DNA of 64,000 nt from Hysterangium stoloniferum (taxonomy: Eukaryota > Basidiomycota > Agaricomycetes > Hysterangiales > Hysterangiaceae). Positions 1 through 64,000 of the stretch are shown here, piece after piece. Where the stretch lies: assembly GCA_015178975.1 (NCBI GenBank), contig WHVD01000152.1, positions 62,001 through 126,000 on the forward strand. The letters run 5' to 3'. The notes below the pieces were generated by a model. It saw only the letters and a list, made by a program, of their open reading frames with translations, was not told where the DNA came from and did not search any database. A program made the translations under genes and the position numbers. How positions within the stretch are numbered: the stretch's first letter is position 1; every line of letters begins with the position of its first letter.

Positions 1-510
1 GAATTATTCACCACATACACTGATGCTGCTCATGGTGATTGCATTGATTCTGGAAGATCCACTGGTGGTTATGTAACTATGATGGCTGGAGGTGCTATTG
101 GCTGGAGTAGTAAACTACAAAGTATTGTCACACTTTCTACAACTGAAGCAGAATTTGTCTCTGCTGTAGAAGCTGGCAAGGAGATTGCCTGGATGCGGCA
201 AATCCTAGGTGAATTTGGCTACCAAGTTGATCAACCCTCCACTCTACACATTGACAACCAGTCTGCCATCAGTGTTGCTAAGAACCCTGAGCATCATGGA
301 AGGATGAAACATCTTGACCTGCGCTACTATTGGCTTAGGGATGCTGTAAATGCCAAGTGTATTGCTCCTTCCTATATTCCTACTGCAGAACAAATTGCAG
401 ATATTCTAACCAAGCCTCTATCTACTCCCAAGGTTCAATTTTGCCGCGATGGAATGGGTATAAGGACTTAGTTTCTTGTTTTCTTTCTTACTCTCTGTAG
501 TTTAGCAAAG

Positions 511-532
511 TCTCTCTCTCTCTCTCTCTCTG
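511..532. repeat. CT dinucleotide microsatellite
   Basis: An uninterrupted TC run lies between the copia RNase H end and the 3' LTR. It is the only sizeable simple repeat in this part of the window. Confidence 0.9.
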
Positions 533-669
533 TTTCTTTTTCTTTGGAGACATGTGAGATCAGGGGGGTCTGTTAAAACTGCCTCCACTGTCTCCAAAAC
601 CTTCTGGAACCTTCTAGAACCTTCTAGAAGCTTCCAGCATGTTCCAGGGTATTCCCAGTTCATTTCCCA

Positions 670-805
670 TGACAGCTGTCAATCAGCTGTCACTTTGTAT
701 TCCAGCTGTCAATCAGCTGTCAGTTTCCATTCAAGCTGTCAATCAGCTGTCACTTATGACAGCTGTCAACCAGCTGTCAACCAGCTGTCACTTATGACAG
801 CTGAC
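670..805. repeat. Tandem palindromic CAGCTGTCAA repeats in copia LTR
   Basis: Several units of the form CAGCTGTCAATCAGCTGTCA follow one another. The core GACAGCTGTC is a perfect 10-bp palindrome containing the CAGCTG E-box. The inverted LTR copy (about 5118-5223) has fewer units, so the array varies between copies. Confidence 0.75.
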
Positions 806-853
806 AAGCCTACTGATGTATAACATATATAAGCTTGTAGTTAGTGACCTGAA

Positions 854-1104
854 TGTTAGAAATGGGAAAATACAATATCTATATGTGACAGACTGTTATA
901 AGACCCAGGTTTGCCATCAGTTATATAAACTGTTATAAGAGCACAAGTTGGCAACATAAGTCCTTATATATATGTATATATAATCCATCATATAATACTA
1001 GACTATAGGTCCAGTAGCTCAGTGGTTAAGAGCACCTGCATATAAAGCCAGGAGGTCCTTGGTTCAATCCCAGGCTGGGTCAATTCTTTTCTATACCTTT
1101 AACA
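854..1104 (+). repeat. Left LTR of the miniature element
   Basis: A 251-bp LTR, TG...CA ended, containing AT-rich sequence with TATATATA motifs and then a tRNA-type unit at 1008-1081 about 23 bp before its end. Confidence 0.92.
1008..1081 (+). tRNA. tRNA-like Pol III unit within LTR (copy 1)
   Basis: The 74 nt fold as a cloverleaf. The acceptor stem GGTCCAG/CTGGGTC has 7 pairs, two of them G-U. The D stem is GCTC/GAGC, and the T stem CTTGG/CCAGG carries loop TTCAATC. The anticodon stem closes with five pairs plus one bulged C, presenting loop ATATAAA (U33, anticodon AUA, A37). A-box (TAGCTCAGTGG) and B-box (GGTTCAATCC) match Pol III consensus, and a TTTT terminator follows at 1087-1090. The anticodon would read the Tyr codon UAU, but the isotype is uncertain because of the bulge. 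It could be a functional Pol III unit or a captured tRNA used only as promoter. Confidence 0.75.
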
Positions 1105-1170
1105 GGTTATGGGCCCCGTGAGCTTGGTGCGCTGCATAGGGTATAGACTAGATATTGATTTCAGGGGAAG
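1105..1170 (+). other. Interior of miniature element: PBS and purine tract
   Basis: Only 66 bp separate the LTRs. The PBS GGTTATGGGCCCCG abuts the left LTR and the purine tract abuts the right LTR. Nothing in it can code for protein. Confidence 0.88.
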
Positions 1171-1421
1171 TGTTAGAAATGGGAAAATACAATATCTATA
1201 TGTGACAGACTGTTATAAGACCCAGGTTTGCCATCAGTTATATAAGCTGTTATAAGAGCACAAGTTGGCATCATAAGTCCATATATATATGTATATATAA
1301 TCCATCATATAATACTAGACCATAGGTCCAGTAGCTCAGTGGTTAAGAGCACCTGCATATAAAGCCAGGAGGTCCTTGGTTCAATCCCAGGCTGGGTCAA
1401 TTCTTTTCTATGCCTTTAACA
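1171..1421 (+). repeat. Right LTR of the miniature element
   Basis: A 251-bp direct repeat of 854-1104 with about five substitutions, all outside the tRNA-like unit. Confidence 0.92.
1325..1398 (+). tRNA. tRNA-like Pol III unit within LTR (copy 2)
   Basis: Identical over 74 nt to the copy at 1008-1081, with the same A-box, B-box and downstream T4 run. Confidence 0.75.
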
Positions 1422-1492
1422 CTGAATAGTAACAACTTTCCTCAGACTTGTGTGTGTCACGTGTCACAGTAAGTCACAGGTCACATTTATCA

Positions 1493-2951
1493 GTTTTGAC
1501 ATCAGAGAATGTGATAGCAGTATTCATCATTAAAGATGAAGTCTACACAGAGTCAGATTCAGGTAGAGAACGAAGTAAAGTGAGAGCAGCAAGCTCATCA
1601 TCCAGCATGGCAAGAGTGTACCCCCTTGGACGCAAGTTCTGGACACGTGCACAAACCTTGTCAACACGACTCATTAATGAAGTTAGAGATTCATCAGGTT
1701 CCTTCCGAATATTAAAGAGGTCATTGTAGGCACTAAAACGAACTGCAGGGAGTTGTTTATTATGTGCCTTGTCAATTTTAGACCACATATCATCAGGACC
1801 ATCATCAATGTCAACATGGGTGCGCTGTGTAGGTCCAAGAGAGCGCCATATGATACCAGCTGCTTTATTGGAGCGCTCCAACCAGGCAGACTGTAAACTA
1901 GTCTCACTAGGTTGTTTTTCTTTGCCAGTGGCAATAGAGAGACAGTTCTCCATACGCAAAAGACCAATTACGTCATGTCTCCAATCCTCATAATTATTCT
2001 CTCCCAATATGACACTACGTTTGTAAGTATCACTGGATGCCATGACACGTCAATATCCACCAAGAATTTAACTTAAAAAGAACTAAGTAATTGGACTCGC
2101 AGTTGTAACACCGCCTTGCTCAACAGGGTTACCGTGATATTGCAAGGAAGGTAAAAACAAAGGCCCACTGAAGAGCACAATGCCAACAGTTTAAGTTCAA
2201 TGTATCTAAAAGACCGTGTTAAAAAGGGAAAATGACGTGGCACAGACCCAGATGATACTGTGAAGTGCTTGAGGTGTGAGGGAAGAGTGTGACTGGAGAG
2301 AAAGAGGTGACAGGGTGTGACAGGGTGAGTCACAAGGGTGATAAAAATGAAGTTGCCCAAAAAAAGGGAAATTAAGGACGACAAGCGATTTGGAGTGTGG
2401 GAATATATTACTTTTTATGGACACGGGCGCCTAAATGGGCGAAAAATGCGCACAATCACAGGTGTGAGATGTGAGTCCAAAAAGCGACCAAATCAGGCCA
2501 AAATCCAAGGAGATATAACCAAAATAAAATCCAAACGCAATGTAGAGTGTTTTGGACAAGTAGAAGTTGTCAGAAAAGATGTGCAAAGTGATGGATTGCG
2601 CAGATGACAACTGGATGTACCAGTTTAGAAGCCGGGGCCCATAACCTGTTGAAACAGTTGAATAACTCTTGACAAACACCCTGTGAGTGTGAGGAAAGTA
2701 AACACTAAATGTATTCAACTGTAAAATAACTACATACCTGTGAGTGTGAGGAAAGTAAACACTAAGGAGACTTTCCCACACCCATAGCGGAGTATACTAC
2801 AGGGTGCTTACCTAAGCACCTACACATCAGTTACCTTACTAGGTAACTCACTCAATACTGCACCTACAGTGCTGGGAAAAATACTACAAATATCAGAAAA
2901 ATATAGGGAACATCATAGACTATGTAAGAGCTGTAATATCATACTCTAACA
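1493..2951 (-). mobile_element. Ty1/copia element, 5' part: LTR, PBS and gag (LTR family A2)
   Basis: On the minus strand an LTR (2951-2647, ends TGTTAGAG and TCAACA) is followed by the PBS GGTTATGGGCCCC (2646-2634), a leader, and a gag reading frame starting at 2043. Its N-terminal region (GENNYEDWRHDVIGLL; later NIRKEPDESL) is typical of copia gag (UBN2-type). The gag is cut by the 3' LTR end of the family A element at 1492, so one copia element sits in another. Fossil; only its 5' part is present. Confidence 0.82.
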
Positions 2952-3240
2952 GGTGAATGGTGGAAAGTACAACTAGCTCCAGCTCTAGCTAAGGATGATG
3001 ATGAGAACATTGATTATGAGGAAGTACAGTTTGTTGGAACAGCTTCAACTGCTGATCCACAAAACTACAAGCAGGCTATGAAAGGTGATGATGCAGATAA
3101 ATGGCAAGAAGCTATCAATGCAGAGTATAATACACTGGTAGAGAACAAGACATGGGAACTTGTTGATCTTGCAGTTGGTGCAAAGGCAATTGGTTCTGGT
3201 TGGGTATTTAAAGTCAAACACAATGCAGATGGCACAATTG
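2952..3240 (+). mobile_element. Copia reverse-transcriptase N-terminal fragment
   Basis: This stretch reads in the plus direction as the start of a copia-type RT, with motif KWQEAINAEY followed by GSGWVFKVKHN. It is a fragment wedged between an LTR and an inverted tRNA-bearing LTR. It may belong to the same family as the flanking copia pieces, but this cannot be shown here. Confidence 0.7.
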
Positions 3241-3413
3241 TGTTAAAGGCATAGAAAAGAATTGACCCAGCCTGGGATTGAACCAAGGACCTCCTGGCTT
3301 TATATGCAGGTGCTCTTAACCACTGAGCTACTGGACCTATGGTCTAGTATTATATGATGGATTATATATACATATATACAAGGACTTATGATGCCAACTT
3401 GTGCTCTTATAAC
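3241..3413 (-). repeat. tRNA-bearing LTR, minus orientation, partial
   Basis: This is the reverse complement of the last 173 bp of the 251-bp LTR. It is directly abutted by a full-length plus-orientation copy at 3414, giving a head-to-head arrangement. No matching target duplication was seen. Confidence 0.88.
3264..3337 (-). tRNA. tRNA-like Pol III unit within LTR (copy 3, minus strand)
   Basis: Identical to the consensus 74-nt unit. It converges with no gene and lies in a partial LTR. Confidence 0.72.
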
Positions 3414-3664
3414 TGTTAGAAATGGGAAAATACAATATCTATATGTGACAGACTGTTATAAGACCCAGGCTTGCCATCAGTTATATAAACTGTTATAAGA
3501 GCACAAGTTGGCATCACAAGTCCTTATATATATGTATATATAATCCATCATATAATACTAGACTATAGGTCCAGTAGCTCAGTGGTTAAGAGTACCTGCA
3601 TATAAAGCCAGGAGGTCCTTGGTTCAATCCCAGGCTGGGTCAATTCTTTTCTATGCCTTTAACA
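3414..3664 (+). repeat. tRNA-bearing LTR, full length
   Basis: A 251-bp LTR copy (TGTTAG...TTAACA) lies within the gag-protease region of the minus-strand copia element. The flanks ATAAC and TGTGG do not match, so simple insertion is not demonstrated and rearrangement with the neighbouring inverted copy is likely. Confidence 0.88.
3568..3641 (+). tRNA. tRNA-like Pol III unit within LTR (copy 4)
   Basis: The 74-nt unit has one C-to-T change relative to the other four copies, in the 3' strand of the D stem (a G-U pair remains possible). A-box and B-box are intact. Confidence 0.72.
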
Positions 3665-5322
3665 TGTGGTACATGCAAAACTCTTGTAAGCTCCACAGAT
3701 CGCGATTTCCTTCCATTTATAACTGGGTTGAATACCACAGAACCAACTCCTGCAGAGTAGATAACAGTGTGATCTGCTAACTTGATTGGGACACATAATG
3801 GTGTGTAGTTACGCAGCCAATGACTATGAGGAGTCATATGACTACTAGCACCTGTATCAGCAAGCCAATCATAGTCAGAACCATTCTGCAGGGTGGATGA
3901 GGAGAAAGCAAGTGCATTTCCACTATATTCAACATTGTTCTGAGACATTGTCTTCTGAGGCCTATTTGGCTTTTTCTTCCCTTTAGCACGATTGGTAAGG
4001 ACACTCTCCTGTGCTTCCTGCTGCTTCTTGATGAAGCGATGACACTTGTCTATAGTATGGTTGGTCATAGAGCAGAAAGTATATTTGAGAAATGCAGTGG
4101 ATGCATTGCCCTTTACAGTAAGTGCAGATGCAACTGCAGGAGCTTGTGAAGCCTGATGACGGCGTTGTGACTCTTCTGTGACAAAAGCTTGTTGGATAGT
4201 AGCCTTGTCCAGCTTGTCCATCAGAAGGAGAGAAGAGGCAAAGTTGTCAAACTGCTCAGGAAGTGCCCTGATCATTGCCATTGATGCAAGTTCCTCATCA
4301 AGTTTGGCAAGATCAAAATTCAATGGGCGCAGATCCTGGATGGCACGGATGGCTAGATCCACCCGATTCATAAGAGTTTGCAAATTCTCATTCTCTTCCT
4401 TTCTGATGGAGAAGAGATCATCATACGCATTGAAGTGCATGCCAGGGTGCTTCTACAAGTATACATCACACAGACTGGTCCACATCTTGACCGGATCACT
4501 CTCAATCCCTTTAAGATGAATCTTTTGATCATCCTCAACACTCAAGTACATCCAACCTGCTGCTTTGTCTGACTTGAGAGCCCAAGCATCAAATGCAGTT
4601 TGCTGGGCCTCTGTGGGAGATGAGGATAGTGCAGGTGCAATGGAGGTGGCCTCAACAATGCGCCAGACACCCTGGGCACGAAGCCAAGCCTGCATCTCAC
4701 CAGACCAGGTGTTGTAGTTATGAGAGTTGAGTTTAGGGAATTGGAGGATGGAAGATGACATTGTAGTATACACAGAGCAAACTCGCAAAGAAGTTCAGAA
4801 AAAAGGTATTTAACTCGAGGTCCAGACGGTAGTCTCGAGGGAAACTCAGCCTTAGTGGCGTACAAGTTCCTCCCTACTAGCAACAGCAATAAGGCTGGGC
4901 CTGGCAGGGGAATATAAAAGTATAGGCTGAAACTTACTCAAAAGAAGCGAGTTTGCAAAACGTTATACTGTACTAGAGCGCTTAGAGCGCGGGGCCCATA
5001 ACCTGTTAAAAGTGACCTGTGACTTACTGTGACATGTGACACACACAAGTCTGAGGAAAGTTGTTACTATTCAGGTCACTAACTACAAGCTTATATATGT
5101 TATACATCAGTAGGCTTGTCAGCTGTCATAAGTGACAGCTGGTTGATAGCTGGCTGACAGCTGTCATAAGTGACAGCTGATTGACAGCTTGAATGGAAAC
5201 TGACAGCTGATTGACAGCTGTCATGGGAAATGAACTGGGAATACCCTGGAACATGCTGGAAGCTTCTAGAAGGTTCTAGAAGGTTCCAGAAGGTTTTGGA
5301 GACAGTGGAGGCAGTTTTAACA
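3665..5322 (-). mobile_element. Ty1/copia element (family A), 5' LTR and gag to protease region
   Basis: On the minus strand: LTR (5322-5004), PBS GGTTATGGGCCCC (5003-4991), leader, gag from about 4788 with the copia gag start LNSHNYNTWSGEMQAWL, and, after the zinc-binding region, the protease motif DWLADTGASSHMT. The LTR is the same family as that at 571-1492. It is a fossil with several breaks. Its downstream part is replaced by the tRNA-bearing LTR at 3414-3664. Confidence 0.85.
5004..5322 (-). repeat. Copia family A LTR, uninterrupted copy
   Basis: A 319-bp LTR. It serves as the empty-site reference for the miniature element: at 5070-5074 (reverse complement CTGAA) there is a single copy of the target pentamer in otherwise matching sequence. 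Confidence 0.87.
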
Positions 5323-7994: not shown

Positions 7995-8628
7995 TGTAAA
8001 GAGTCGATAGATTCTGACCGTTCAATATATGAAGAATAGTGTTTATTCAACTACTATTAGCAGGTATTGACTGTACAGTACAATACCGTAGATTACTAGA
8101 CTAGCAGTACTAGTAAGGAGACACGCTATGCGTCACAAGAGCAACTGTACAGACGGCTAGAATGAAAGAAGGAAAGAGTTGACCTTCACGGTACAACTCG
8201 TAGCTAAACGTAAGATAGATAGTCAACAAAAAGCTGAATATCTAAAGTAAAGAGATAGTAGCGCGAGTCGACTATAGTGTCAACGAGCGCAAAGACCTTA
8301 AAGGGGAACTCGACCTTCGCGGTTCAAGTTCAAAGTACGTTAGTATGCGAGAGAACACTACCTTTATAGGTAGTTAAGACGTTACCCTTGACACCTCTCG
8401 CTATTTGACGTCTGGGTTGTTTATGAGGTGGTGTCTGCTGGGTAAAAAGTGTCTGTCGTTTGGCGCCGAGAGCGCCCATATGTATACACAAAGCTTTGAA
8501 CTACAAAATAAGGGTATGCTCAAAATATAGAAAGAATGTAAATGAAGAAAATAAAAGGTAAATAATAAAGTACTATAATCCAACTATTATTCCTTAGTCC
8601 AATTATGCATATATGCATACCCTTCACA
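7995..8628 (-). mobile_element. Solo LTR, gypsy family B, with target duplication
   Basis: The 634-bp LTR (plus-strand ends TGTAAAGAG and CCTTCACA) is flanked by a perfect CATTG duplication (7990-7994, 8629-8633). The duplication overlaps the ATG of the antisense frame, so that ATG survives at the border. Related copies are at 49489, 54923 and 57929. Confidence 0.9.
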
Positions 8629-16651: not shown

Positions 16652-16902
16652 TGTTAGAAATGGGAAAATACAATATCTATATGTGACAGACTGTTATAAG
16701 ACCCAGGCTTGCCATCAGTTATATAAACTGTTATAAGAGCACAAGTTGGCAACATAAGTCCTTATATATATGTATATATAATCCATCATATAATACTAGA
16801 CTATAGGTCCAGTAGCTCAGTGGTTAAGAGCACCTGCATATAAAGCCAGGAGGTCCTTGGTTCAATCCCAGGCTGGGTCAATTCTTTTCTATGCCTTTAA
16901 CA
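16652..16902 (+). mobile_element. Solo tRNA-bearing LTR with target duplication
   Basis: A complete 251-bp LTR (TGTTAG...TTAACA) flanked by a perfect CATAG duplication (16647-16651, 16903-16907). It shows the LTR family transposes into host-side DNA and leaves a standard solo LTR. Confidence 0.95.
16806..16879 (+). tRNA. tRNA-like Pol III unit within solo LTR (copy 5)
   Basis: Identical to the consensus 74-nt unit, with A-box, B-box and a TTTT run a few bases downstream. It is about 1.3 kb from the start of the TAD2 gene and closest to the host block. Confidence 0.75.
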
Positions 16903-32408: not shown

Positions 32409-35400
32409 ATGTCAGGAAATCCAGATAAACGTCCATTGCCGGATGGCTGGATAGAGAGTTTTGATGAGAAGTATGTACATCCCTTAACACTGTGGTTAAC
32501 TTGCAGAACAGTTAACATGATTACAGGAGAAAGAAATGGTCCGTTAGTCGAGGATCATAATGATATGAGTTCTGACGCCAAATCATCCTGTCTCTCCTCT
32601 CTAGGTTCTATACGCAGACCAACGTAAACCCTCCGCGAGTCTCATATGCACACCCACGGAGTGCAATAATAAGGCCCGTGAGTCTCAAGAATTCACTGAT
32701 CAATGTAGCAAGCTCAGACGAAGTTCAACGACAAATGCCTCCTGAGTCTTCTTTCACGAGGTCCAGTCCGCTTGACGCTGTCAATAGTGTTGAACAGCTG
32801 TACCGCCATGGAACCTCTACATTGGTAGGACAACCCGCATCTTCCTCTACTCCTGGCGCGACTGCTACTCCAAACCTTCCTGCACGGTTAAGACAAAAGC
32901 TCTCAGTTGTCCCAGCGGAAGTTACCCAGGATTCCATTCAGCCCACCCCGGCCCAACTTATAGCCATGCAAGCCAGAGGCGAGATAATGCCTTCGCGATC
33001 ATCTTCTGTTAGCTCAACTGCTTCAGGTCGCGACTCTCCGAGTGCTAGTAGTTTTAATGTCCCTTCCACCCCTTCCCCGAAATTTGGGACTTCTGCTCGG
33101 TCTCATCTAAAGGTGATGCATCGGGTGTCCCTACCTCCTCAGTTAGATTCTCCCCTGCCTCCCTTTCCTACCCCGTCATCCCCTCAATCAAGCTCGGTCC
33201 CAGGTCCACAAACTCGACCACAACGTCCCTCATATTCACCGACTCAATTCACTTATGGTCAACAAGGTCATCCCCAACCACAGTCCCTGCTCCCTCAAAT
33301 CCAAGAGTATCAACCAGTCCAGCAACAACTACCCCAGGTTGTGGTTAACGGACAGACATATGCGGCGTACCAAGTACAACAATCGCCACAAGTTTACGTT
33401 CCGATTCAGGTACAGCAGCCACCCCAATCATATGTTCCAATTCAGGTGCAGCAGCCGCAGCAAACATATGTTCCGGTTCAGATGCAGCAACCTACTCAAA
33501 CAATGCAAGTCCAACGACCCCAAACATATATCCCTGTCAGTCTCAATAGTTCACCCGCTGGACAAACAACACACTCTGTGCCTGAGCCCTCAAGGCCTCC
33601 AGCTCACCACACTTCGCAGCCTCAATCGTATGCTCCAGTACAGTACAACTCGGGACCCCCACACTCACAACCTCCGAATCAAACAAATAACAGTAATAAC
33701 ACGTCAGTACACCACAACTCGGGACCTCCACTGTCACAGCCTCCGAATCAAGGAAATAACAGTAATAACATGCCAGTACAGTACAACTCGGGACCCCCAC
33801 TTCCACAACCTCCGAATCAAACAAATTACAGTAATAACACGCCAGTACAGTACAACTCGGGACCTCCACTGTCACGACCGCCGAATCAAGCAAATAACAG
33901 TAATAACACGCAAGTACAGTACAACTCGGGACCCTCACTTTCACAACCTCCGAATCAAGAAAATAACGGAAATTATACGCCAGTACAGTACAACTCGGGA
34001 CCCCAACCTCCACAACCTCCGAATCAAGCAAATAACAGTAATAACACGCTAGCACAGTACAACTCGGGACCCTCATTTTCACAACCTCCGAATCAAGAAA
34101 ATAACGGAAATTATACGCCAGTACAGTACAACTCGGGACCCCCACTTCCACAGCCTCCGAATCAAGCAAATAACAGTAATAACACGCCAGTACAGTACAA
34201 CTCGGGACCCACACTTTCACAACCGCCGAACCAAGCGAATAACAGTAATTACACGCCAGTACAGTATAACTCGGGACCCTCACTTTCACAACTCTCGAAT
34301 CAAGCGAGTAACAGTAATTATACGCCAGTACAATACAATTCGGGACTCCCACTTCCACAACCTCCGAATCAGGCAAGTAACAGTAATTACAAGCCAGTAC
34401 AGTACACTGCCCCTCCCCCGCAGAGGCCTCACACAGACTACACACCAGTACACTACGGTAGTCCTCCACCGCCTTCGCAACAGGCCTATGCGCCCGTACA
34501 ATACCAGCCTCAGTCGCCCCAAGCACACCAAACGCCTAATCCTCAGAGGCCGGGACCATCCAGACCTTCCATGTCAGATGTTTTGAAATATGGAAAGAAG
34601 ATTTATCAGCATTTCGAACAATCAGGCTCGTCTGGGAGCGGTTCTGGAACTGGATCCTATCACACGAATAATCCATCAGGCGGAGTCAACAATGTCAATC
34701 CAGGATACGGCGGAGGAGGAAATGGTGCAGATGGCGGAGGGAGCGGCTCTGGATATAACGGTGCAGGGAATGACTCTGGAAACAATGGCAGCGGGGACAA
34801 TGGAAACGGGGGAGGTTTTGGAGACCTTGGAAATGGTGGGAATTCTGGGAATGGTGGAGATTTCGAAAATGGGGGAGATTTCGGGAGTGGAGGAGATTTC
34901 GGGAGTGGAGGAGATTTCGGGAGTGGGGGAGGTTTCGGAAATGGGGGAGACCCCGGGAATGGTGGAGATTTTGGAAATGGGGGAGACTTCGAAAACGGCG
35001 GGAATTTTGGTGGTGGAGGTTTTGGAAACAACAACTTCGGAAATGGAGGAGGGAACGACGGGGGTGGTGGGGATGGTGGCTTAACCGGTATTATGAACTC
35101 TTTTGGAAATCTTGTTTTGGGACAAGGTGACGGAGGAGGCAATAACGGTGAATATTTCGGAAGCGACAGCAACCTTGGAGGAGGGGATGACGAGGGTAGT
35201 GGTGATGGTGGCTTAGTTGGTATTATGAACTCTTTTGAAAATCTTGATCTAGGACAAGGTGACGGGGGAGGCAATAACAATAACGGTGAGTAAAACTTGG
35301 CTCGGTTTTCATGTCCCTTAATTCTGTCACAGAAGGAGGAGATTTTGGAACTGGTGGCGACTTGGGGATAAATGTGAACTTTGGTGGAGGCGTGGATTTT

Positions 35401-49488: not shown

Positions 49489-50130
49489 TGTGAAGGGTAT
49501 GCATATATGCATAATTGGACTAAGGAATAATAGTTGGATTATAGTACTTTATTATTTACTTTTTATTTTCTTCATTTACATTCTTTCTATATTTCGAGCA
49601 TACCCTTATTTTGTAGTTCAAAGCTTTGTGTATACATATGGGCGCTCTCGGCGCCAAACGACAGACACTTTTTATCCAACAGACACCACCTCGTAAACGA
49701 CCCAGACGTCAAATAGTGAGAGGTGTCAAGGGTAACGTCTCAACTACCTATAAAGGTAGTGTTCTCTCGCATACTCACAGACTTTGGACTCGAACCGTGA
49801 AGGTCGAGTTCCACTCTAAGGTCTTTGCACTCGTCGACATTATAGTCGACTCGTGCTATTATCCCTTTACTTTAGATATTCGGCCTCTCATTGATTATCT
49901 ATCTTACGTCTAGCTACGAGTTGTACCGTGAAGGTCAACTCTTTCATTCTTCATTCTAGCCGTCAAGAGCAACTGTACAGTTGCTCTTGTGACACATTGT
50001 GTGTCTCCTTACTAGTACGGCCAGTCTAGTAATCTACGGTATTGTACTGAACGGTCAATACCTGCTAGTAGTAGTTGAATAAATGCTATACTTTGTACAT
50101 TGAACGGTCAGAATCTATCGACTCTTCACA
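49489..50130 (+). repeat. Gypsy family B LTR (5' LTR of the gag-bearing element)
   Basis: A 642-bp LTR, TGTGAAGGG at the start and CTCTTCACA at the end. It is followed by TGGTGATCTGGGCC, a probable primer-binding site beginning one base past the LTR. It precedes gag in the same orientation. Confidence 0.85.
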
Positions 50131-53038
50131 GTGGTGATCTGGGCCGGACCATTCTTTTCCTATGAAGAAAGATCTTATTATTGGACTACTAAAACTCGAA
50201 CACGCGAATGACTATGGGCAAGAACCAAACACCTAGGTCTTCATCAGCTCCGAGTAGCTCCATGCCTCATCAAAAATCCGCTAATTTGGAACCACCCCGT
50301 AACGTCACTTTGAGGAAGTCTTCGTCGACTCTCCAAGGATCAACTCCTCTGGAGGATCCTTCCGGAGTAGTAGCGGATTCGTCAATGAACATTCCATCCG
50401 ACCCACCTGAAGAACGCTCGTCACTCGGGCAGTCGAACGCCCCTGGAGCCAACGTTGAGGCTGGTCGAGCACCCTCGCCTGTTCTCAGGTTCCCTCCGAG
50501 ACAGGTTATTCTCAAGCAGTTCCTTGGAGGTCATATGATTTATGCTCAGCCCATCGACTTACAATGGGATATGTACTACACCGATCGAATCTCCGAGGAT
50601 CTGGTTACCCCCTTTGTAGAGGAGTACAATATGGATTATCCCATTTTACCAGTGACTGTAGCAGTGTGGTTAGGTCGTTACCAGGCGATCTTATCGGCAC
50701 AAGATTTATTCACGCGACCAGGGAACCTTGAGGACTTGACCCGATCGATTCCTGAATGGTCGAACGAGGTGACTACCACTACAGAAGGTGGAAGAAGGAT
50801 TCTCAAGCAGGAGGTGTTTTCTCTATTCCTTGAAGCACTTCGTACGCATGATGATGCGTTGCAGATCCTGCACGTCCTGCTCGGCGGAGACCATGTCGTG
50901 CCTAAGGTTGACTACCAGTACATGTATATCTGCATGTTGGAGGAGTCTCTCAATGGAGTCACGCCAAATCTGCCGTTTGCGTACTTCACTTTAAGGGGTC
51001 GGCTGAAACGAAATCAAAGAAGACTTGATAAGATGGTTTTAGAGGTATTCCTCCCCTATAATGACTCGATACAGGTCCCCGATTCGCCTATCTCCATGAC
51101 TAATTCGTTCATTCACAACCTAAATGGGTCTCCAGATACTCGTTTCCTACATTCTCTCAACCATCCTGTGATAATGGAGGACTTTCCGCTGGACTTGAGG
51201 ACACAGGTGATAGAATGCCTTCAAGAAAAGAGGATTGAGGTCTGTGCTCCCTTTCATCAACCTCAGCTGCATCAACTCCTGAACACGATGGAGATGAGAG
51301 ACAAATTGCGATGGAATCTGGTCCCACGCCTGTTCAGGGAGATCCCCGCTCTCGCATCGCGTTTGAGGGAGTTTCCAACAGCCCTAACGTCGGGAATGAG
51401 GTGACCACTGTCAGAAACTGATCGGTCGCCAGCAAGGGTCGACCCTCCTTCTCTACAGCGTTCACTGAGGGTATAGCTGGCCCAGTTGCTGGTCAAGGAT
51501 CGCTGAACCCAGACGGTCCCCACCATTCTCTGCCGATCACTTCAAATCCTTTCTTGCCATCAGGAGGACCCCCTAGTGATTCATCCGGGAGTTCGAATAC
51601 TTCAGACCGAGGAGGGAACTCGGGACGTGGGGAGCGCCACAATAGAGTGCCTAATACCCCTTTTCGAACTCCGATGCAGTCTCAAGCTAGCGCGCTTATT
51701 GATGACTTACCTAAGGACAAGAAGATCACTCTTAACACCAGCGACCTCAAGATCAAGTGGTCTGACCTCCCCGAATACGATGGAGCCCAATCCAAGGCCT
51801 TGGACTATATCATGGACATCATGAGTCTTGCGGAGATATCAGACTCTTTGAGTGTGATGTTAGGAGTCGCTCTGCCAAGACGACTCATGGGAAACGCTAA
51901 AGTCTGGTGGAGCACCCTAGACTGTGAGCATCGTACTGAATTCAGTCAATCTCATGGGTCATTTCTCTGGGGCATCATGGAAGGATTGCTTGGAACTCGC
52001 TGGCGTGAATCCTTGGCCTTAGAATGGGAAGCCATGAAATTTCGACAAGTTGGTCATGATCGCGAGACACCCGTCCACTATATCCAATGGAGAGTTAAAC
52101 TCTATCGCTTTCTGTACGGGTTCCACCAGGACAGAGGAGATGAGACACGCAGACTCATTCTCACGCTGCCTACAGAATGGCTCTACCTTCTTCAAGGACA
52201 ACCCATTGACGATATCATGAGTTTGCAGACTTATGCTAATAACCTGCAAGAAGCTCTGATTAACGCTTGGGTCCAAACACACCGGGAACGTTACAGGTTC
52301 TAGAAACTGCACGTAATGTTAGCAGAGGGTCAGGAAGTGGATTTTAGAGTCACCGACGACTTCTCTTCACCTAACCAGGTTCTCGTTAGTCTCACTAACG
52401 AGAGAGGCTCGATGAGAAGGATCGTCCCTGACGTCGCTAATCCAATGCAGGGAAAGCATCACGGAAAAATGTTCTTTGAGAAGAGTAACAAGAGGAGCTT
52501 GGTCAAACCCACCAAGGAATGTTGGATATGCGGAAGTCCGGAGCATTTCAAGATAGATTGCCCCCACGCTGGCAAAATGTCTCATTATGTCTCTATCAAC
52601 AATGCTCTGCACAGGATATGTCGGAGGAAGCTGAGGAGCAAAGGTTATATGAAGCGGTTCATGGACTATCTATACAAGGACAAGTAAATAGCTCTGATGA
52701 CAAATTGACTTTTGTTTCCATTTATGCGCCCCATGTCGGAGACAAATTAGTAAGGGAGGAAAATCCAACGACTGGTGAAGCTCTTCCGTCTGAAGCTTAT
52801 GTATCCATACTCGCCGCAGATTTCTTCGAAAAGGGAGACCGATTGAGTGCTCATCGGCAGGACCTTGAAGGCCTGACCGAGAAGTATGGGCAGACTGGAG
52901 ATTCTCACGAACAAATCAGCCCAAACTCGCTCTGTTCGCCTGGAACTGATGTTGACACATTCCCGTTTGATCCTGGAAACCCCCCCAACTTACTACCGTA
53001 CGAGGACTCGGATTCGGAGGACAGCAACAATGACACGG
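50131..53038 (+). mobile_element. Ty3/gypsy family B element, gag and adjoining region
   Basis: Two long frames (50208-51404 and 51554-52303) cover gag-type sequence; the second carries the capsid-like region from KIKWSDLPEYDG. A zinc knuckle (CWICGSPEHFKIDC, CX2CX4HX4C) lies at about 52519-52560. The frame near 52519-53043 ends in an acidic stretch at the LTR border at 53039. A fossil with a few breaks; pol is not contiguous here but a matching plus-strand pol lies beyond 58576. Confidence 0.8.
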
Positions 53039-53669: not shown

Positions 53670-56600
53670 GTGCCCCCCAGGTCGAAGAGCTATGTCAAAG
53701 AAGATGTCGGAGGACGCTTGGAACTCCTCCCCATGCATCCTGCAATGAACCCCCAAGGTGTAGGATAGTGTTGCCCCAGGCGAGACGCTTGGCACGAAAG
53801 GAAAGAGCGATGTCCTCCCGTCTCGAAGCGTCATTGGCGGATGTCAACCCATCCAGTTTTTGGATTGACGAGACCCAACGACCGTAGGCCTTCTGGCGCA
53901 TTCGAATTATGGCGTGAACACGATCAGCGGAAGCGTCAGTTATACAGGCAAGGAGAGGGGGTCGAGGGTGTAGTGATGGCGGGGTAGGAGTGATGAGTGG
54001 TGTGGAGCTCATGTCTCCCCCAGAGGGGATTCCTCTCGAAGTGTCTGAATCCAGCAACAGTTGCTCCAACAAGTCAACGAGGTCCACTGCAGAGTGGGTT
54101 GGTGTGTGGTCAGGAAGAACACAAGAGGAGTTGACAAGTAAGGACCGAAACATGGAAAGTTCCACCCGTTCTATATCCTCTGCTAAACGCAGCTGTTCCT
54201 TAGGGTCGTTGATGCATAAATAAAATGCGCTCATGCGGTCCGACAAAGTGAGAGACCCACTATACCCCTGGATATGCCCTTTAAGAAGGGGGTGCTGCAG
54301 GGTTGGTCCCAGTCGCGTTAATGTGCATCCCACAGTGAAGATGTCAGAGGGATAATTAATAGACCCGCGCATCCAACTTGACTGGAAGGGACGGGAGGGG
54401 CCAGCCGTATCCTCAGAGTGGAGGGGAGAGGACGGCTGCGGCGGGGGGCTGCGAATGGGGTGGGTCGAGGGGGGGTCCATGACAAGGGGCTCGTCGGCCT
54501 GAGTTCTTCGTTTCCCTTTTGCTTTTTCACTTGAGGGGGGAGGCTCCTTGAAGGCTTCCATTGCTGGGGGGGGTTCCTTGGAGACGTCTATGGCTGAGAG
54601 AGGCGCTTCGAGGACTTCCTCCATAGGCGTTGCGAGAACTTCCGGGATAGGGTGATCAACATCCATTAATGTATTGTTAGGATGCTGAATGGGACTTCCC
54701 AGAGAAATGCAAGGGGAGTAGGGAGAGGCAGGCGGTGGACTCCGCGGTGTCAAGGAAGTGAGGGGAATGTTAGACACCGCAGGGACCAAAGGCGTCGAAG
54801 TAGAGTGGGAGGCGACGAGAGGGTCAGGTGATGTGCGGAGGGGTGAGATTGGCTGCGGTGCTGGAGGAGGCTTGGGTATGGATGAGGATGGTGATATAAG
54901 ACAATGTCCTGCGAAGGAGAGGTGTGAAGGGTATGCATAATTGGACTAAGGAATAATAGTTGGATTATAGTATTTTATTATTTACTTTTTATTTTCTTCA
55001 TTTACATTCTTTCTATATTTCGAGCATACCCTTATTTTGTAGTTCGAAGCTTTGTGTATACGTATGGGCGCTCTCGGCGCCAAACGATAGACACTTTTCA
55101 CCCAGCAGACACCACCTCGTAAACGACCCAGACGTCAAATAGCGAGAGGTGTCAAGGGTAAAGTCTCAACTACCTATAAAGGTAGTGTTCTCTCGCATAC
55201 TAACATACTTTGAACTCGAACCGCGAAGGTCGAGTTCCCCTCTAAGGTCTTTGCGCTCGTCGACACTATAGTCGACTCGCGCTACTATATCTTTACTTTA
55301 GATATTCAGCTTCTCGTTGATTATCTATCTTGCATCTAGCTACGAGTTGTACCGTGAAGGTCAACTCTTTCCTTCTCTCATTCTAGCTGTCAAGAGCAAC
55401 TGTACAGTTGCTCTTGAGATGCATAGCATGTCTCCTTACTAGTACTGCCAGTCTAGTAATCTACGGTATTGTACTGTACGGTCAATACCTACTAATAGTA
55501 GTTGAATAAACACTATTCTTCGTATATTGAACGGTCAGAATCTAGCGACTCTTCACAGGAGGGGTAGTGGTATAGGGGGAAGAGAAGGCAGCTCAGAGGA
55601 TGGTACAAGACTTCCTGGTAGCTCCGAAAAGGGTGTAAAGCGCTGTAATGTGGGTACGGAAGAGACTGGCGGGGGTGGAGGGAGATGAGAGGAAGTGGAT
55701 GGGATTGCAGAGTCTGCTGGACGATACCCTCTCCAAACTCTGACGGAAGTTGGTAGCTTTCGTCGTTGGTTAGGATCACTCGTGAAGAAGTGAATGTTGT
55801 CAGGGAGTAGGAAACCTTCATGGCAGTCAGCACCGAGGTACTTGCTGTCGTAGGTGGGGTAGCGAGATTGGTCGTCCTCCAAGTCATATGAAAGATCACT
55901 GGGCCCCATCCGGTAGGTCCGTTCCTGAGGTCCACAGTGTGAAGGGGGTCTGGGAGGTAATGCAACTCCATCTCCACGTCACAATGCAATGCTTTGTAAT
56001 TTGATCCTTCGTACTTTGTCCCAATCGTAGAAGGTGACCCCATCTTTTCCTTTCCTACTTTTTTGGCCTACACTCCGAACACATGGCGTGCCCCCGTCGC
56101 TGCAATCCGTTTCAGCGAAATCCGTCCATTTATGACCCGAAGGGGGAGCGATGATTGAAGGATTATTGTGCCCTTCCATTTTCCTCCATTCCTGCCGTGT
56201 CCACCTTGAAGGGACATTATCCCTAGCCCCCATCCTCCGCTGTCCTTCCAAGTACTCCTCTCTCCTTTTCCGTTTAAGCGTTTTCAATTCCTCCTGAACC
56301 TGTGCGGAGAAGGCCTCAGACTGCTGTTTCTTCCTGATCTCCTCTTCGGTAGAAGGGAAAATACTACGAGAAGGTGGTGGGGTTTCGCTCCATGTTCCCG
56401 AGGGAGCCCCCCAAGTATTAGAGGACCATGGTGCAGCTTTTGAAACGGAGTCCATCCACATAGGATTCGTGGACGATGAGGTCTCCTCCACACACTCGAC
56501 AGTTTCTGTTCGAGGTGATGGGACAGAAGGAACTGTAGTTTGAGGTTGAGGTATTCTTTTAAAATTGGGAAATCGGGGTCTGGAAAGAGGAGTGTATGGA

Positions 56601-57928
56601 GTAAAGGCGGTTCCGTTCCCCGAGTTGGTGGATGTTCCCGCGATGTCGCCCTGCGCAGCGGAGGGTATTGGCAAAGGCATTCCAGAATTACTCATGGAGT
56701 GCTCAACTTGTTCAATGCGAGACGGCATGGTAGAGGTATTAACGGGTTGAGGTCGCAGTATTCTTTTGAAGTTGGGGAACTTGGGTTTGGGTTGTTGCTC
56801 CTGCGACATAGTGTACTGATTAGAGAGGTTGACGTGGAGGGAAGAGATAGGGGGAATAAAATTTTCTTTAGCGAATTTACGTATTTTATATTAATTTCAA
56901 GCTCTGCTCGGTTATTGAAGTGAAAGGCTGAGGGGGAAGAAAGTAGGGGGGGGGGTAGAGCTAGAAGTAGATAAACAGTGTTATCGTCGTAAGGATGTGA
57001 AATGATCATTAAATTCGATAAATAGTCTTGTAAGCTCTAAGAAGAGCGGGAGCATTACGAAGGTCATTGCCGTTTAACCAAGTGTCCTCCTCCGGTCCAT
57101 ATCCTTTCCATCGAACCTGGAAAAGGAGTCAATTGCAATGCTTTTTGTGTCCTACTATAGCTTCTACTTTGTACTCCTCGTTGTTACGATTGAGTTCTCG
57201 AGGGTTCTCGAGTAGCTCCCTGGATCCGAATTCCTTAGGGGAGAGGTGGTACTTTTTAAGATGGTCTCGATTAATCACTGGATGTAATTGATATTCCAAG
57301 GGGACGCGGAGTCGGAAGACTTGAGGATTGATCTTTTCCAAGACCTCAAACGGCCCTATCCGTTTTTGTATAAGTTTTCTTCCGGGTCCCTTGGCCTCAA
57401 CGAGCTTGAGAGAATGGGGATTAATCAGAACATAATCTCCCTCTGAGATATCTTCTACTAATCTCCGTCTCTTGTTGTAACTGCGAGCTTGGGTCTCTTG
57501 TGCTCACGCAATTGAATCCCACGCCACTTGTCGGTGATTTTCCAATTCTAAGATCCATTGGTCAGCTACAGGGCTATCTGATAATTCTCTGGGAACCACA
57601 GGGTCGTCCCCTCCTAGACAGCTAGACATTTCCCTTGGTAAGTAGCCTATCAGCAAAAAGGCCGGCGCATAGCTTGTTGAGCTTTGAACCGTCAAATTGT
57701 AGGTATGAGCCACTACTTGAGTCCATTTAGACCATTCCTCCTTCGAAGAGGCGCAGTACGCTCTGAGCATTTGCTCCACAATAGCATTAGCGTTCTCCAT
57801 TTGACCGTCGGTCTGAGGATGGTGGGACGAGGATACTGCAAGGGCACTTCCGTATACTTTGCAGACTTCTCTCCAAAACCTACAGGTCCACCTCTTGTCT
57901 CGATCACAGATTATCCTTGAAGGCAGGC
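53670..57928 (-). mobile_element. Ty3/gypsy family C element, integrase end, chromodomain and 3' ORF
   Basis: Read on the minus strand: integrase (region of TENANAIVEQML at about 57800), the integrase tail and chromodomain-type end (EKINPQVFRLRVP at about 57340), then a long 3' ORF from 56809 (MSQEQQPKPKFPNFKR) to about 53690, then purine tract and LTR. A solo family B LTR (54923-55557) interrupts the 3' ORF. At 57929 it meets another LTR. Fossil with several breaks. Confidence 0.8.
54923..55557 (+). mobile_element. Solo LTR, gypsy family B, inside the 3' ORF
   Basis: A 635-bp LTR in plus orientation. Flanking pentamers AGAGG and GGAGG match at 4 of 5 positions, so a slightly decayed target duplication is likely. 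Confidence 0.83.
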
Positions 57929-58575
57929 TGTGAGGAGTATGCTTTTACCACAGTTTCATTGTGGTAAAACACTCCTTTTATTTTATTTATATTTTACATA
58001 TTCTATTCATATTTTTTCTATCTTTCATATTCTTCGAATATTGCATATTTCATTAGTTCGAAGCATTGTGTATACTTGTGGGTGCACTCAGCACCAATTA
58101 GAACTCAGACACTTTTTACCCAACAGACACCACCTCGTAAACGACCCAGACGTCGAATAGCGAGAGGTGTCAAGGGTAACGTCTCAACTACCTATAAAGG
58201 TAGTGTTCTCTCGCATACTCACAGACTTTGGACTCGAACCGTGAAGGTCGAGTTCCACTCTAAGGTCTTTGCACTCGTCGACATTATAGTCGACTCGCGC
58301 TATTATCCCTTTACTTTAGATATTCGGCCTCTCGTTGATTATCTATCTTACGTCTAGCTACGAGTTGTACTGTGAAGGTCAACTCTTTCATTCTTCATTC
58401 TAGCCGTCAAGAGCAACTGTACAGGTTGCTCTTGTGACGCATTGCGTGTCTCCTTACTAGTACGGCCAGTCTAGTAATCTATGGTATTGTACTGAACGGT
58501 CAATACCTGCTAGTAGTAGTTGAATAAATGCTATACTTCATATATTGAACAGTCAGAATCTATCGACTCTTCACA
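57929..58575 (+). repeat. Gypsy family B LTR, variant with a different U3
   Basis: A 647-bp LTR ending CTCTTCACA. From about 58105 on it closely matches the copy at 49489-50130, but the first 170 bp or so are largely unrelated to the other B copies. It contains a perfect hairpin at 57943-57969. No 5-bp duplication is seen at its borders. Confidence 0.8.
57943..57969. other. Perfect 10-bp stem hairpin in the variant LTR
   Basis: TTTTACCACA and TGTGGTAAAA pair perfectly around a 7-nt loop (GTTTCAT). Confidence 0.85.
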
Positions 58576-59870
58576 CCTTTGGAGTAGACGGGTGTTTAGG
58601 ACAAGTAGACGTCAAAGTCAATGTTCTGTTAAAAGAAGGCGTGCAACCTATTTCAATGTCAATGTTTACGACCTCCCCAGCTAATAGGAAAGTCATTGAC
58701 GAACAAATGGATACTTGGTTTCAACAGGGAGTAATCGCACTGTCCAAGAGTCTTTGGGGGGTGCCAGCCTTTGTCGTCTATCGCAACAGGAAACCGCGAG
58801 TGGTGATTGACTATAGAAAGTTGAACAGTCTAACAGTTCCCGATGAGTTCCCACTGCCACGCCAGTCAGAAATCATGCAAGCACTTTCAAGATCCAATGT
58901 CCTATCTTCCTTTGACGCACTAGCCGGCTTTACCCAACTTGAGATGTTAGAAGAAGACAAACTGAAGACTGCCTTCACATCCCATTGAGGACTGTGACAA
59001 TTCAGGAGAATGCCCTTTGGACTTTGTAATGGACCTTCTATATTTCAAAGAGTTATGCAGACTGTACTTGCACCTTATTTATGGATATTCTGCCTAGTTT
59101 ATATTGACGACATCGTGATCTTTTCTAAGACATGGGATGATCATCTAGAGCATTTAGATCAGGTTCTGCAAGCCATAATTGCAGCAGGAATCACTCTCTC
59201 GCCAAAAAAGTGCTATGTTGGGTATAATTCAATTCTATTACTAGGACATAAGGTGTCTAGACTCAGTTTTTTGACCCATCAAGAAAAGGTTGCCGCTATA
59301 CTAGAACTAGCTACGCCTTCTAGGATAGCAGATCTTCAACATTTCCTCAGAATAATCCTGTACTTTTCCGCATACATACCATTTTACTCCTGGACGGTTG
59401 CTCCGCTCTTCAACCTCTTAAAGAAAGGAGTTCATTGGACCTGGGATTCTGAACATGCCCGAGCTTTTGAAGACATTAAGGTCGTGTTGAGCTCTGCTCC
59501 TGTACTCAGACACCCCGTGAGTGGTATGCCTTATCGGTTATACACGGACACTTTGAATTTCGCGCTGGGATGTTGTCTTCAACAAATACAGAAGATGACG
59601 CTTAAGGACCTAAAGGATACAAAAATTTACATCCAAGCAAGAGTAGCCTTTGATCAATCACGAGATGTGCCCATTTTTCGTCACTCATTATAAAACCAAG
59701 GAGCCGGAATTTACTTGGACAGATTCCTGGGCCTCAGATTTTGATGACACCAGTGTCACGGTTGAGCGCGTCATCACCTATTGGAGCTGTACGCTCAAGA
59801 AAGCAGAATGTAATTACTCAGCCACAGAGTGAGAGGTGTTAGCTGCTAAAGAGGGACTAGTCCATTTCCA

Positions 59871-60924
59871 TGTCAGGAACCGGAAAACCCGCCAGCCTCC
59901 GGGCCCCCGGACCCCATCCTACATGCTCCTGACCCTCTATATTGTATAGTAACAACCGGAGTTCCCACGGGAGCCCGCATGTCAACTTGTTTATGCCTGA
60001 CTCTCTGTATGCACCCCACCTGTCTGCACCTAACCCTCTGTGTCTCATACACCAGTCCTCGGACTCCACCGGACTCCGGACTCCACTCTATGTACACCCG
60101 ACACTCTGTGTCTTATGTACCAGTCACCGGACTCTGACCGGACTCCTGGAACCCCTCTAACAGAGCATAGAACCCTGCTCCTGTTATCTGTCTCTGCGTC
60201 TCACACACCAGTCATTGGAAAACCCACCGGACTCCACCGGACCTCCTGCACATCAAGCCTGTCTATACCCAACACTATCTTGTGCACCAAGTCACCGGAC
60301 TCCGACCGGACTTCCGGAACCCCTCTAACTGAGCCCCGCTCCAGTTATGGTTAAATGATCTGTCATGATTCGTTCTCTGCTCCCGTTCCGTTCCGTCCCT
60401 AATTCCCAGTTTAGTATTTACTTGTTTCGTTTTATGTTTAATAGTTCTGCCTCTCATTAATACTGGATTTGGTATTATTACATTTCACAGTCTATATAAG
60501 TCTGCTATATTCATGTACTTAGAATCCAGTTTCAATCTTGAACTAGTTTTCCCCCGAACAAGTTTGATCCTTGAACAGTCTCTAGTCCTCTTGTCTGTCT
60601 GCACACTCGATTCCCGGAACTCCCACGGGAACTCCGGAATCTATATCTTCCTGTATGCATTCTGTCAGCTCGAAATATGGACACCCAAATGAATGTACGA
60701 GGGCGCAGCCTATAAGCTGAAGCCAAGTCCATCTCAGTCGTTCACCAGACTTTCTGGTAATTATTCTGATATCACCATTCCTTGTACTAATAATCCCCGG
60801 AACTTTCCCGGGACCTATTACCCGGGGACTCCGTGGGACTATTCCCGGAAGCAAGTGTGTGTTCGGAATAGTTACCAGAAACCTCCGTGGGACCATCCGT
60901 GGAGCTTTGTTCGGGAACTGAATA
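59871..60924 (+). mobile_element. Solo LTR (family E) in RNase H region, 1,054 bp
   Basis: An insertion rich in CCGGACTCC-type motifs, starting TGTCAGGAACCGG and ending GGGAACTGAATA. A 5-bp duplication TTCCA flanks it (59866-59870, 60925-60929), and RNase H sequence is continuous across the empty site. The 3' terminus is not the expected CA, so the exact edge or a diverged end is uncertain. Confidence 0.78.
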
Positions 60925-61697
60925 TTCCAGCCCTTTATTGAGGGAGAACATATCCTCCTGATCACTGACCATGCGGCGTTACAATGGGCCAGATCTTATG
61001 AGAATACCAATCATCAACTGGCCACATGGGGGGTGGTATACGCTGCATACCCCGGTCTGGAAATCTTACATAGAGCGGGACGGATACACAGCAATGTTGA
61101 CCCACTGTCTAGACTTCCTCGAGTACCTGATTGTGCTAGCCCCACGAGAGACGACCTTTTACCAATCGTAGCAGATTCTTACAACCAGAATGACAACAAG
61201 ATGTTATGGGAGAACAAACCAGCGGAAAAGGCCATCTTTCTCACTCACTACGAGTTAGTTGAACCAGTCAGAACGATGGAAGAGGTCCCCCAAACGAAAT
61301 GGGATTTGCACAACCTCCCCAGGAACAATGAAATCAATGAGGTGAATTTTACTCTCTCGAATCCCCAATTGCTTATAGAAATCAACGAAAATTACGCCAA
61401 GGAACTTCATGATGGATACCAGAAAGATCCTGCCTTTAGAAATCATTACGCTGCCGATCCTATTTCTCCAAACATGGTAGCTACCCCTTCGCATTATTTC
61501 ATCGGCAAGAATAAGCTATTGTTCTTTCAAGATTCGGACTGGAAAAGTCAAATCTGCGTTCCTAGCAGCATGACGTCAACCATACTCAAGTTGATACATG
61601 ATAACCCCTTCAAAGGAGCTCATGCAGGCGGTCACAGACTCTTTCAGCTGATGAAGGACTGTTTCTTCTGGCCGAGGATGTTGCACAACTGCATGGC

Positions 61698-62282
61698 TGT
61701 TACGACCCGTTCCCGGATGTTTCAATATCCGACTTCCGGTCTCCCACTCCCGACTTCCGATCCCCGACTTCCGACTTTGACCTCCGACTACGGAACATCA
61801 TAGTTACCGTATCATCCACATTCTTCCCTTATTCCGCATTTGGTAATTTGTCCGTTGACAAGTATTCACTCGTTTGTTTGTTATATTCCTGTTACGGAAT
61901 ATTGCCTTCCTAATATGTCTTATTGTATTTCCGTTTTAAGAACACTTCCGTTTCCATCTTATTATGGTCTTAGTTTGTAGTACAATAACGAGCAGACTTA
62001 TATTAGTTTCCGCGAATTTGTACTTTACCTTAGATCTGATATCGACTTAGTTTCTTATTCCTTCTTCCGTCTTTCTGTACGCTCGATATTCAGAACTCTT
62101 CAGAACTCTGAATATCCGTAACTCCCATCATAAGTCTCACCTCCGAAATTAAGGACATTGAGCGTTTGTGTAGAGGTGCAGCACATAAGCTGAAGCCGAC
62201 GTCCTGACCCTATCTAGTTGTTCCCGACTTCCCGGTGACTTCCCAATAGTTCCGGAATAAGTTCCCGACACGGCACTTAACA
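61698..62282 (+). mobile_element. Solo LTR (family D) in integrase region, 585 bp
   Basis: The insertion begins TGTTACGACCCG and ends CACTTAACA, with perfect duplication ATGGC (61693-61697, 62283-62287) inside the integrase zinc-binding region. Confidence 0.93.
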
Positions 62283-63724
62283 ATGGCATACGCTCGCAGC
62301 TGTGACATATGCCAGAAAACTAAGGTCGATCATTCCACTCGACAAGGAGCTCTTCGACCCGCAGATGTACACAAAATGAGCTTTTTCCCCTTACGGAGCT
62401 GAAGGATGCCAGGCAAGTGTACCCTTAAGGCCGTTTGAGGTTGTCTTGATGGTCCTGATTACGGGATTGCCTCCTTCTGCAGAGGGTGCCATCTTCGTCA
62501 CTGTGGATAAACTCACGTGTTTCTTAATTTGTGAGCCCACAACTTCAGATCTATCCGCAGAAGGATTCACATGAATCTTTGTGAATAAAGTGGCCGCTCC
62601 TTTCGGCCTACCTTCGAGGATAATCTGTGATCGAGACAAGAGATGGACCTGTAGGTTCTGGAGAGAGGTCTGCAAGGTATACGGAAGTGCCCTTGCGGTA
62701 TCCTCGTCCCATCATCCTCAAACCGACGGTCAAACAGAGAATGCCAATGCTATCGTTGAGCAAATGCTCAGAGTGTACTTGCGCTTCTTCGAAGGAGGAA
62801 TGGTCTAAATGGACTCAAATGGTGGCTCATACCTACAATTCGACGGTTCAAAGTTCAACAAGCTACACGCCGGTCTTTTTGCTGATGGGATACTTACCAA
62901 GAGGAATGTCTCACTGTCTAGGAGGGGATGACCCCATGGTTCCCAGAGAATTATTGGATAGCCCCTTAGCTGACCAATGGATCTTAGAATTGGAAAACCA
63001 TCAGCAGGTGGCATGGGATTCGATTGCATGAGCACAAGAAACGCAAGCCTGCAGCTACAATAAGAGAAGGAGATTGGTGGAAGATATCTTGGAGGGAGAT
63101 TATGTTCTGATCAATCCCCATTCCCTCGAGCTCGTCGAAGCCAAAGGACCTGGAAGGAAACTTATACAAAGACAGATAGGGCCATTCGAAGTCTTGGAGA
63201 AGATCAATTCTCAAGTCTTTCGACTTCGCATTCCCTCAGAATATCAATTACACCCAGTGATCAACCGAGACCATCTTAAAAGGTACCATCTCTCCCCTAA
63301 GGAATTCGGATCCAGGGAGCTACTCGAGAATCCTCAGGAACTCAATCATAACGATGAGGAGTACAAAGTAGAAGCTATAGTAGGGCAAAAAAAGCATCAA
63401 AATTGACTCCTTTTCCAAGTTCGATGGAAAGGTTATGGACCTGAAGAGGACACCTGGTTAAACGGCAATGACCTTCATAATGCCCCCACTCTTCTTAGAG
63501 CTTACAAAACTATTTATCGAATCTAACGATCATTTCACCTTCTCACGACGACAATACTGTTTATTTACTTCTAACTCTACCCCTCACTTTCATCCCCCTC
63601 GGCCTTTCACCTCAATAACCGAGTGGAGCTTGAAATTAATATAAAATATGTAAATCTGCTAAAGAAAAAGTTCATCCCCTTACATATCTCTTTCCTCCAC
63701 GTCAACCTCTCAAATCAGTACACT

Positions 63725-64000
63725 ATGTCGCAGGAGCAACAACCCAAACCCAAGTTCCCCAATTTCAAAAGAATACCATGACCCCAACCTATTAATACTT
63801 CTATCACATCATCTCGTACTGAAAAAGTCGAGCACTCCACAGGTAATTCTGGAATGTCTTTGTCAATACCCTCTGCCATGCAGGACAACATGGTGGGAAC
63901 ATCCACCAACTTGGGGAACAAAACCACTTTCACTCCATACACTCCTCTCCCCAGACCTTGATTTCCCAATTTTAAAAGAATACCTCGACCCCAAACAACA
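63725..64000 (+). other. Start of gypsy 3' ORF (third copy)
   Basis: MSQEQQPKPKFPNFKR recurs after the chromodomain as in the minus-strand element at 56809. It runs to the window edge. Confidence 0.75.

Follow-up and report, generated by a model that had tools for sequence, protein, structure and literature searches.

A Helenus-type miniature LTR retroelement, very probably mobilised by Copia proteins, with a tRNA-like Pol III unit in each LTR

The DNA analysed here, which we call the window, is a continuous stretch of 64 kb. Positions 854-1421 of the window form a complete miniature LTR retroelement of 568 bp. A direct-repeat comparison places the 251-nt 5' LTR, which runs from TGTTAG to TTTAACA, at 854-1104 on the plus strand, and the 3' LTR, also 251 nt and identical to it at 246 of 251 positions, at 1171-1421. 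The interior (1105-1170) spans 66 nt, with a PBS, GGTTATGGGCCCCG, at its start (1105-1118, plus strand) and a polypurine tract, CAGGGGAAG, at its end, where it adjoins the 3' LTR (1162-1170, plus strand). The TSD, CTGAA, is repeated at both flanks (849-853 and 1422-1426). The longest stop-free stretch across the whole element is 50 codons and there are no protein genes, so that with its two LTRs, its total length below 1000 bp, its PBS and its purine tract the element has the makeup of a TRIM. The coordinates given in the preliminary description, a 568-bp element made up of two 251-bp LTRs, a PBS and a purine tract, are exact. A TATA-rich block at 964-983 (plus strand) is a possible Pol II TATA element or a possible upstream Pol III element. 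GGTTATGGGCCC would fit the anticodon-loop initiator-Met primer pattern, and we presume GGTTATGGGCCCCG to be of this type, going by the pattern in PMC10886601. The two LTRs differ at 5 of 251 sites (K 0.020), which, with the fungal rate of 1.05e-9 substitutions per site and year taken from PMC5689174, dates the insertion to roughly 10 million years ago, the rate being a borrowed one that may not be that of the host.

The element lies within the 3' LTR of a larger retrotransposon, Copia A (572-1491, plus strand, defined by LTR alignment), which it splits. The two parts of this LTR, 572-853 and 1427-1491, align to positions 5322-5004 on the minus strand with five mismatches and one 30-nt gap, and it is this alignment that identifies the site as an insertion of the miniature element into the Copia A 3' LTR. 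The aligned segment is the LTR of a second element, Copia C (5004-5322, minus strand), which runs uninterrupted across the point occupied by the miniature element in Copia A and so confirms the TSD. The Copia C PBS begins at 5003, and downstream lie matches on the minus strand to Pol_BBD (PF22936, E 1.7e-13) and to a Copia-type gag domain (PF14223, E 2.6e-4), the latter at 20.9 bits and hence under the curated cut-off of 27. Between the two is Copia B, also on the minus strand, with a probable LTR at 2647-2951 that is seen in one copy and whose ends we infer, a PBS from 2646, and a downstream gag domain (PF14223, E 2e-15). Pfam gave no match to the C-terminal piece of Copia A at 1-471; we take this piece to be an RNase H-like C-terminus, a reading that draws on sequence motifs.

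The Copia elements around the insertion are themselves nested. Within 1-5322 the miniature element sits in the Copia A LTR, Copia A abuts the minus-strand gag of Copia B, Copia B abuts a plus-strand Copia RT piece, and this is followed by an LTR pair and then by Copia C on the minus strand; we infer the nesting order of Copia A, B and D from adjacency. Short tandem repeats rich in AGCTGTCA occupy 674-807 of the Copia A LTR; the Copia C LTR has a different number of them, seen as the 30-nt gap.

The 14-nt PBS of the miniature element is found, identical at 14 of 14 positions, directly behind the LTR ends of Copia B and Copia C, after which the three interiors diverge, and the first 12 bases of GGTTATGGGCCCCG have exact matches in the 64-kb window only at these two elements and at the miniature element. 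This exact PBS, common to two Copia elements, indicates that Copia elements of that group probably mobilise the miniature element. The LTR ends of Copia A, B and C share TGTTA with it, and the purine tract upstream of the Copia A LTR likewise has CAGGGG. The Copia elements differ from it in having gag or pol pieces and in having LTRs in which ARAGORN detects no tRNA, and the best match of the Copia B and C LTRs to the 251-nt LTR, at E 0.063, is not significant. Copia B and C are fragments here, and an intact Copia that could serve as helper was not found in the stretch analysed.

Each LTR of the miniature element contains a tRNA-like unit of 75 nt on the plus strand, at 1008-1082 in the 5' LTR and at 1325-1399 in the 3' LTR, detected in both cases by ARAGORN and by the Rfam tRNA model RF00005. 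For the 5' unit the model returns 48.6 bits (E 2.4e-7) against a threshold of 29. The unit measures 75 nt rather than the 74 nt given in the preliminary description, and its intact A and B boxes were located in the 5' LTR as TAGCTCAGTGG (1015-1025) and GGTTCAATCCC (1061-1071). The preliminary reading, a miniature element whose LTRs each contain a Pol III unit of tRNA type, is borne out by the sequence. Of 3000 dinucleotide-shuffled versions of the LTR, ARAGORN found a tRNA in 1, which shows that the unit is not a chance product of composition. ARAGORN labels it tRNA-Tyr(ata), and alignment to the Rfam model places a bulged base in the anticodon arm. Folding energies did not provide thermodynamic backing for the cloverleaf, which comes to -18.3 kcal/mol against -21.4 kcal/mol for the minimum-free-energy fold, and set against shuffled sequences this minimum-free-energy fold has no excess stability (z -0.30). 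Since the best fold is not the cloverleaf and its stability is that of shuffles, the case for a cloverleaf comes from the covariance model and ARAGORN. Nor is the unit significantly more conserved than the rest of the LTR, with 1 variable site in 75 compared to 8 in 176 (p 0.19).

The 251-nt LTR is present in five copies within the window, and all five contain the tRNA-like unit. Besides the two LTRs of the miniature element there is a solo LTR at 16652-16902 (plus strand; unit 16806-16880) flanked on both sides by CATAG, a further full-length LTR at 3414-3664 (plus strand; unit 3568-3642) with the unmatched flanks ATAAC and TGTGG, and a truncated LTR at 3241-3413 (minus strand; LTR positions 79-251; unit 3263-3337). 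The units in these three copies were found by ARAGORN and Rfam, and the extent of the solo LTR was established by repeat comparison. The Rfam tRNA score is 48.6 bits for four of the five units and 46.2 for the remaining one, which has a change in the D stem, and between any two of the full-length LTR copies 2-6 of the 251 positions differ. The five tRNA genes that ARAGORN calls in the 64 kb all fall within copies of this LTR; no other tRNA-like unit was found there by ARAGORN or by an Rfam search with the E limit relaxed to 5. The preliminary description named absence of the unit from other copies of this LTR as an outcome that would count against it; within this one window no copy lacks the unit. 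At 3241-3664 the truncated minus-strand LTR stands head to head with the intact plus-strand LTR, with unmatched 5-bp flanks, the plus-strand Copia RT piece on the left and the minus-strand Copia C gag on the right; this arrangement looks like the product of recombination between two copies of the 251-nt LTR that fused two Copia fragments.

A run of four T residues (T4) follows the unit in each LTR, at 1087-1090 after a 4-nt spacer in the 5' LTR and at 1404-1407 in the 3' LTR (both plus strand), and the element's plus strand has no other run of four or more T. The first is a possible weak Pol III terminator. Composition suffices to explain it: one T4 is observed per 317-nt unit where shuffles have 0.84 on average, and when the 22-nt T-rich tail in which it lies is itself shuffled, 79% of the resulting sequences contain a T4. 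With both number and position close to the compositional expectation the T4 alone is not significant.

We consider it very probable that the miniature element is a Helenus-type TRIM mobilised by Copia proteins, the family being assigned by way of its published description. According to PMC10886601 (Kojima 2024), Helenus elements are TRIMs whose LTRs include a tRNA-like sequence. They are known from animals, from a plant and, among fungi, from Pucciniales and some Agaricomycetes; those of fungi and the plant have a 5-bp TSD. The same paper describes fungal Helenus elements as 311 to 1263 bp in size, with a PBS like that of Copia and LTRs without similarity to Copia, infers their dependence on Copia, and reports a primer site of the same kind as GGTTATGGGCCCCG for most fungal families. 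It also states that box A and box B motifs are retained by most families in fungi and animals, and that a functional Pol III promoter has not been experimentally validated. The miniature element resembles the fungal members in its two LTRs with a tRNA-like unit, its PBS and purine tract, its lack of genes, the occurrence of solo LTRs, its LTR without Copia similarity and its length of 568 bp, which lies inside the reported range. Its TAGCTCAGTGG has the TRGCY and YGG motifs of the Helenus box A and its GGTTCAATCCC the GGTTC of box B; a 5-bp TSD is found both at the element (CTGAA) and at the solo LTR (CATAG), the flanks of LTR 3414-3664 being unmatched; and its PBS, apparently of the anticodon-loop initiator-Met type, is Copia-like in agreeing with Copia B and C at 14 of 14 nt. 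Comparison by description reveals no departure from fungal Helenus among the features tested, and the T4 behind the unit goes unmentioned in the available portions of PMC10886601. tRNA-type TRIMs, fungal members included, have thus been known since their description in 2024 as Helenus (PMC10886601, as available), which removes the novelty implied in the preliminary description and makes 854-1421 a further example.

Among other known systems, the comparison with the plant TRIM Cassandra drawn in the preliminary description is sound, in that both are gene-less elements with a Pol III unit inside each LTR. Cassandra, a plant element, differs in that its unit is 5S rRNA and not tRNA, and no 5S rRNA was found in the LTR here, tRNA being the only model to reach its Rfam gathering score in the window; its PBS is given as TGGTATCAGAGC in PMC7215508, compared to GGTTATGGGCCCCG in the miniature element. 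The tRNA-derived SINEs (SINE2) are alike in being short gene-less retroelements with a tRNA-derived Pol III promoter (PMC10886601), and the miniature element differs from them by its LTRs, PBS, purine tract and integrase-type 5-bp TSD. Relatives were also sought outside the window, in viral and prokaryotic collections, where negative results say little about distribution in fungi. Viral contigs yielded no match to an LTR-specific 19-mer, to a combined B-box and PBS pattern or to the RNase H-like piece of Copia A. A 16-mer joining the LTR end and the PBS had one exact match there, on a contig without a tRNA and extending to 17 nt of the element, which we take to be chance. In genome contigs the combined pattern matched once, at a tRNA-Met gene; the contig belongs to a bacterial MAG and lacks a long direct repeat, and this match is likewise attributed to chance.

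How such an element would obtain its genomic RNA is less clear than its family, and from sequence we rate Pol III transcription as the source at about even. Pol III would begin at 1008 or slightly ahead of it. With a terminator already in the 5' LTR the polymerase ought not to reach the PBS unless that terminator is leaky; budding yeast Pol III terminates weakly at T4, more strongly with a hairpin within 7 nt (PMC9278858), which allows for partial read-through, and by analogy the T4 here would be a weak to moderate terminator that suggests the same. Pol III would then either halt at the first T4, giving a tRNA-sized RNA, or continue across U5, the PBS and the interior into the 3' LTR, ending with the second T4 at 1407, to give an RNA of ~400 nt. 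In the longer RNA an R region of ~83 nt would be repeated at the two ends (about 1008-1090 and 1325-1407), as strand transfer needs, with a U5 of 14 nt (1091-1104) and the PBS adjoining it. Priming would be by the 5' part of an initiator-Met tRNA, at its anticodon loop, and copying by a Copia reverse transcriptase; a Copia integrase would insert the product, duplicating 5 bp. The role of the tRNA-like unit would be that of a promoter, neither primer nor working tRNA. If the genomic RNA adopts a tRNA-like fold, enzymes of tRNA processing might gain access to it, which would count against this scheme. The specific proposal that the T4 sets the R region, a leaky first and a final second T4 producing the tRNA-sized RNA and the ~400-nt genomic RNA that Copia machinery replicates, is put forward tentatively, and we think it rather more apt to fail than to hold. 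If true, promoter, R region and terminator would form one block of ~83 nt in a Pol III transcript replicated by Copia.

The main competitor to this scheme also has a TRIM moved by Copia, with Pol II transcribing the genomic RNA from the TATA-rich block (964-983), and we regard it as a serious contender that falls somewhat short of an even chance. The tRNA-like unit would then be a captured passenger or yield nothing longer than a tRNA-sized RNA, Pol III being halted at the T4 within the 5' LTR. The location of the block 25-44 nt upstream of the unit fits this account, as does the lack of significant conservation of the unit, and the T4 stands just four bases behind the unit, a distance at which a hairpin should make termination more efficient (PMC9278858). 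Use of the unit as a promoter is favoured instead by the intact A and B boxes of the miniature element and by the retention of both boxes in most Helenus families (PMC10886601).

Other accounts of the unit fare less well. AUA is not the usual eukaryotic tRNA-Tyr anticodon, and the intron usual in tRNA-Tyr is absent from the unit; together with the bulged anticodon-arm base and a best fold other than the cloverleaf, features that make a working tRNA unlikely in themselves, this leaves it highly improbable that the unit is a functional tRNA gene carried as cargo, despite the tRNA-Tyr(ata) label from ARAGORN and the possibility left for a few Helenus families in PMC10886601. The entry of a tRNA gene or SINE into an LTR is proposed there as the origin of Helenus-type elements, but a one-off event of this kind in one LTR is extremely improbable here given that the unit is in all five LTR copies of the window: its presence in the solo LTR, which has its own and different duplication, CATAG, indicates that unit and LTR were copied together. 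A tRNA-like RNA would arise next to the PBS and might on that ground be the element's own primer for reverse transcription. We give this practically no credence, as exact complementarity of the unit to the 21 nt beginning at 1105 nowhere exceeds 6 nt, which rules out the unit as primer source, and PMC10886601 describes the Helenus unit as without such complementarity.

As a Helenus-type TRIM very probably moved by Copia, the miniature element is of more value as a test case for Pol III-driven LTR retrotransposition than as a discovery. It is a clean copy, with intact ends, an uninterrupted-site comparison in a Copia LTR and elements with an identical PBS within 5 kb, and this would make it possible to test whether an LTR retrotransposon can replicate from a Pol III transcript. 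Helenus-type elements also inflate predicted tRNA counts, as illustrated by the ARAGORN predictions in the 64 kb, every one of which belongs to this LTR family.

The remainder of the window contains further repeats. At 33635-34406 a unit of 69 bp (23 codons) is repeated in tandem 11.2 times, inside a 905-codon open frame (32576-35293) that has no Pfam match. A dispersed repeat of ~520-640 bp occurs in four copies that are 88-95% identical (7995-8628, 49489-50131, 54932-55558 and 58054-58576), and a 1.4-kb repeat is present in inverted orientation at 56534-57937 and 62597-64000 with 87% identity. Pfam was run on 10 of the 28 listed open frames and matched one of the ten, a retroelement integrase/RNase H fragment; such a fragment lies at 60922-61800, near the inverted 1.4-kb repeat.
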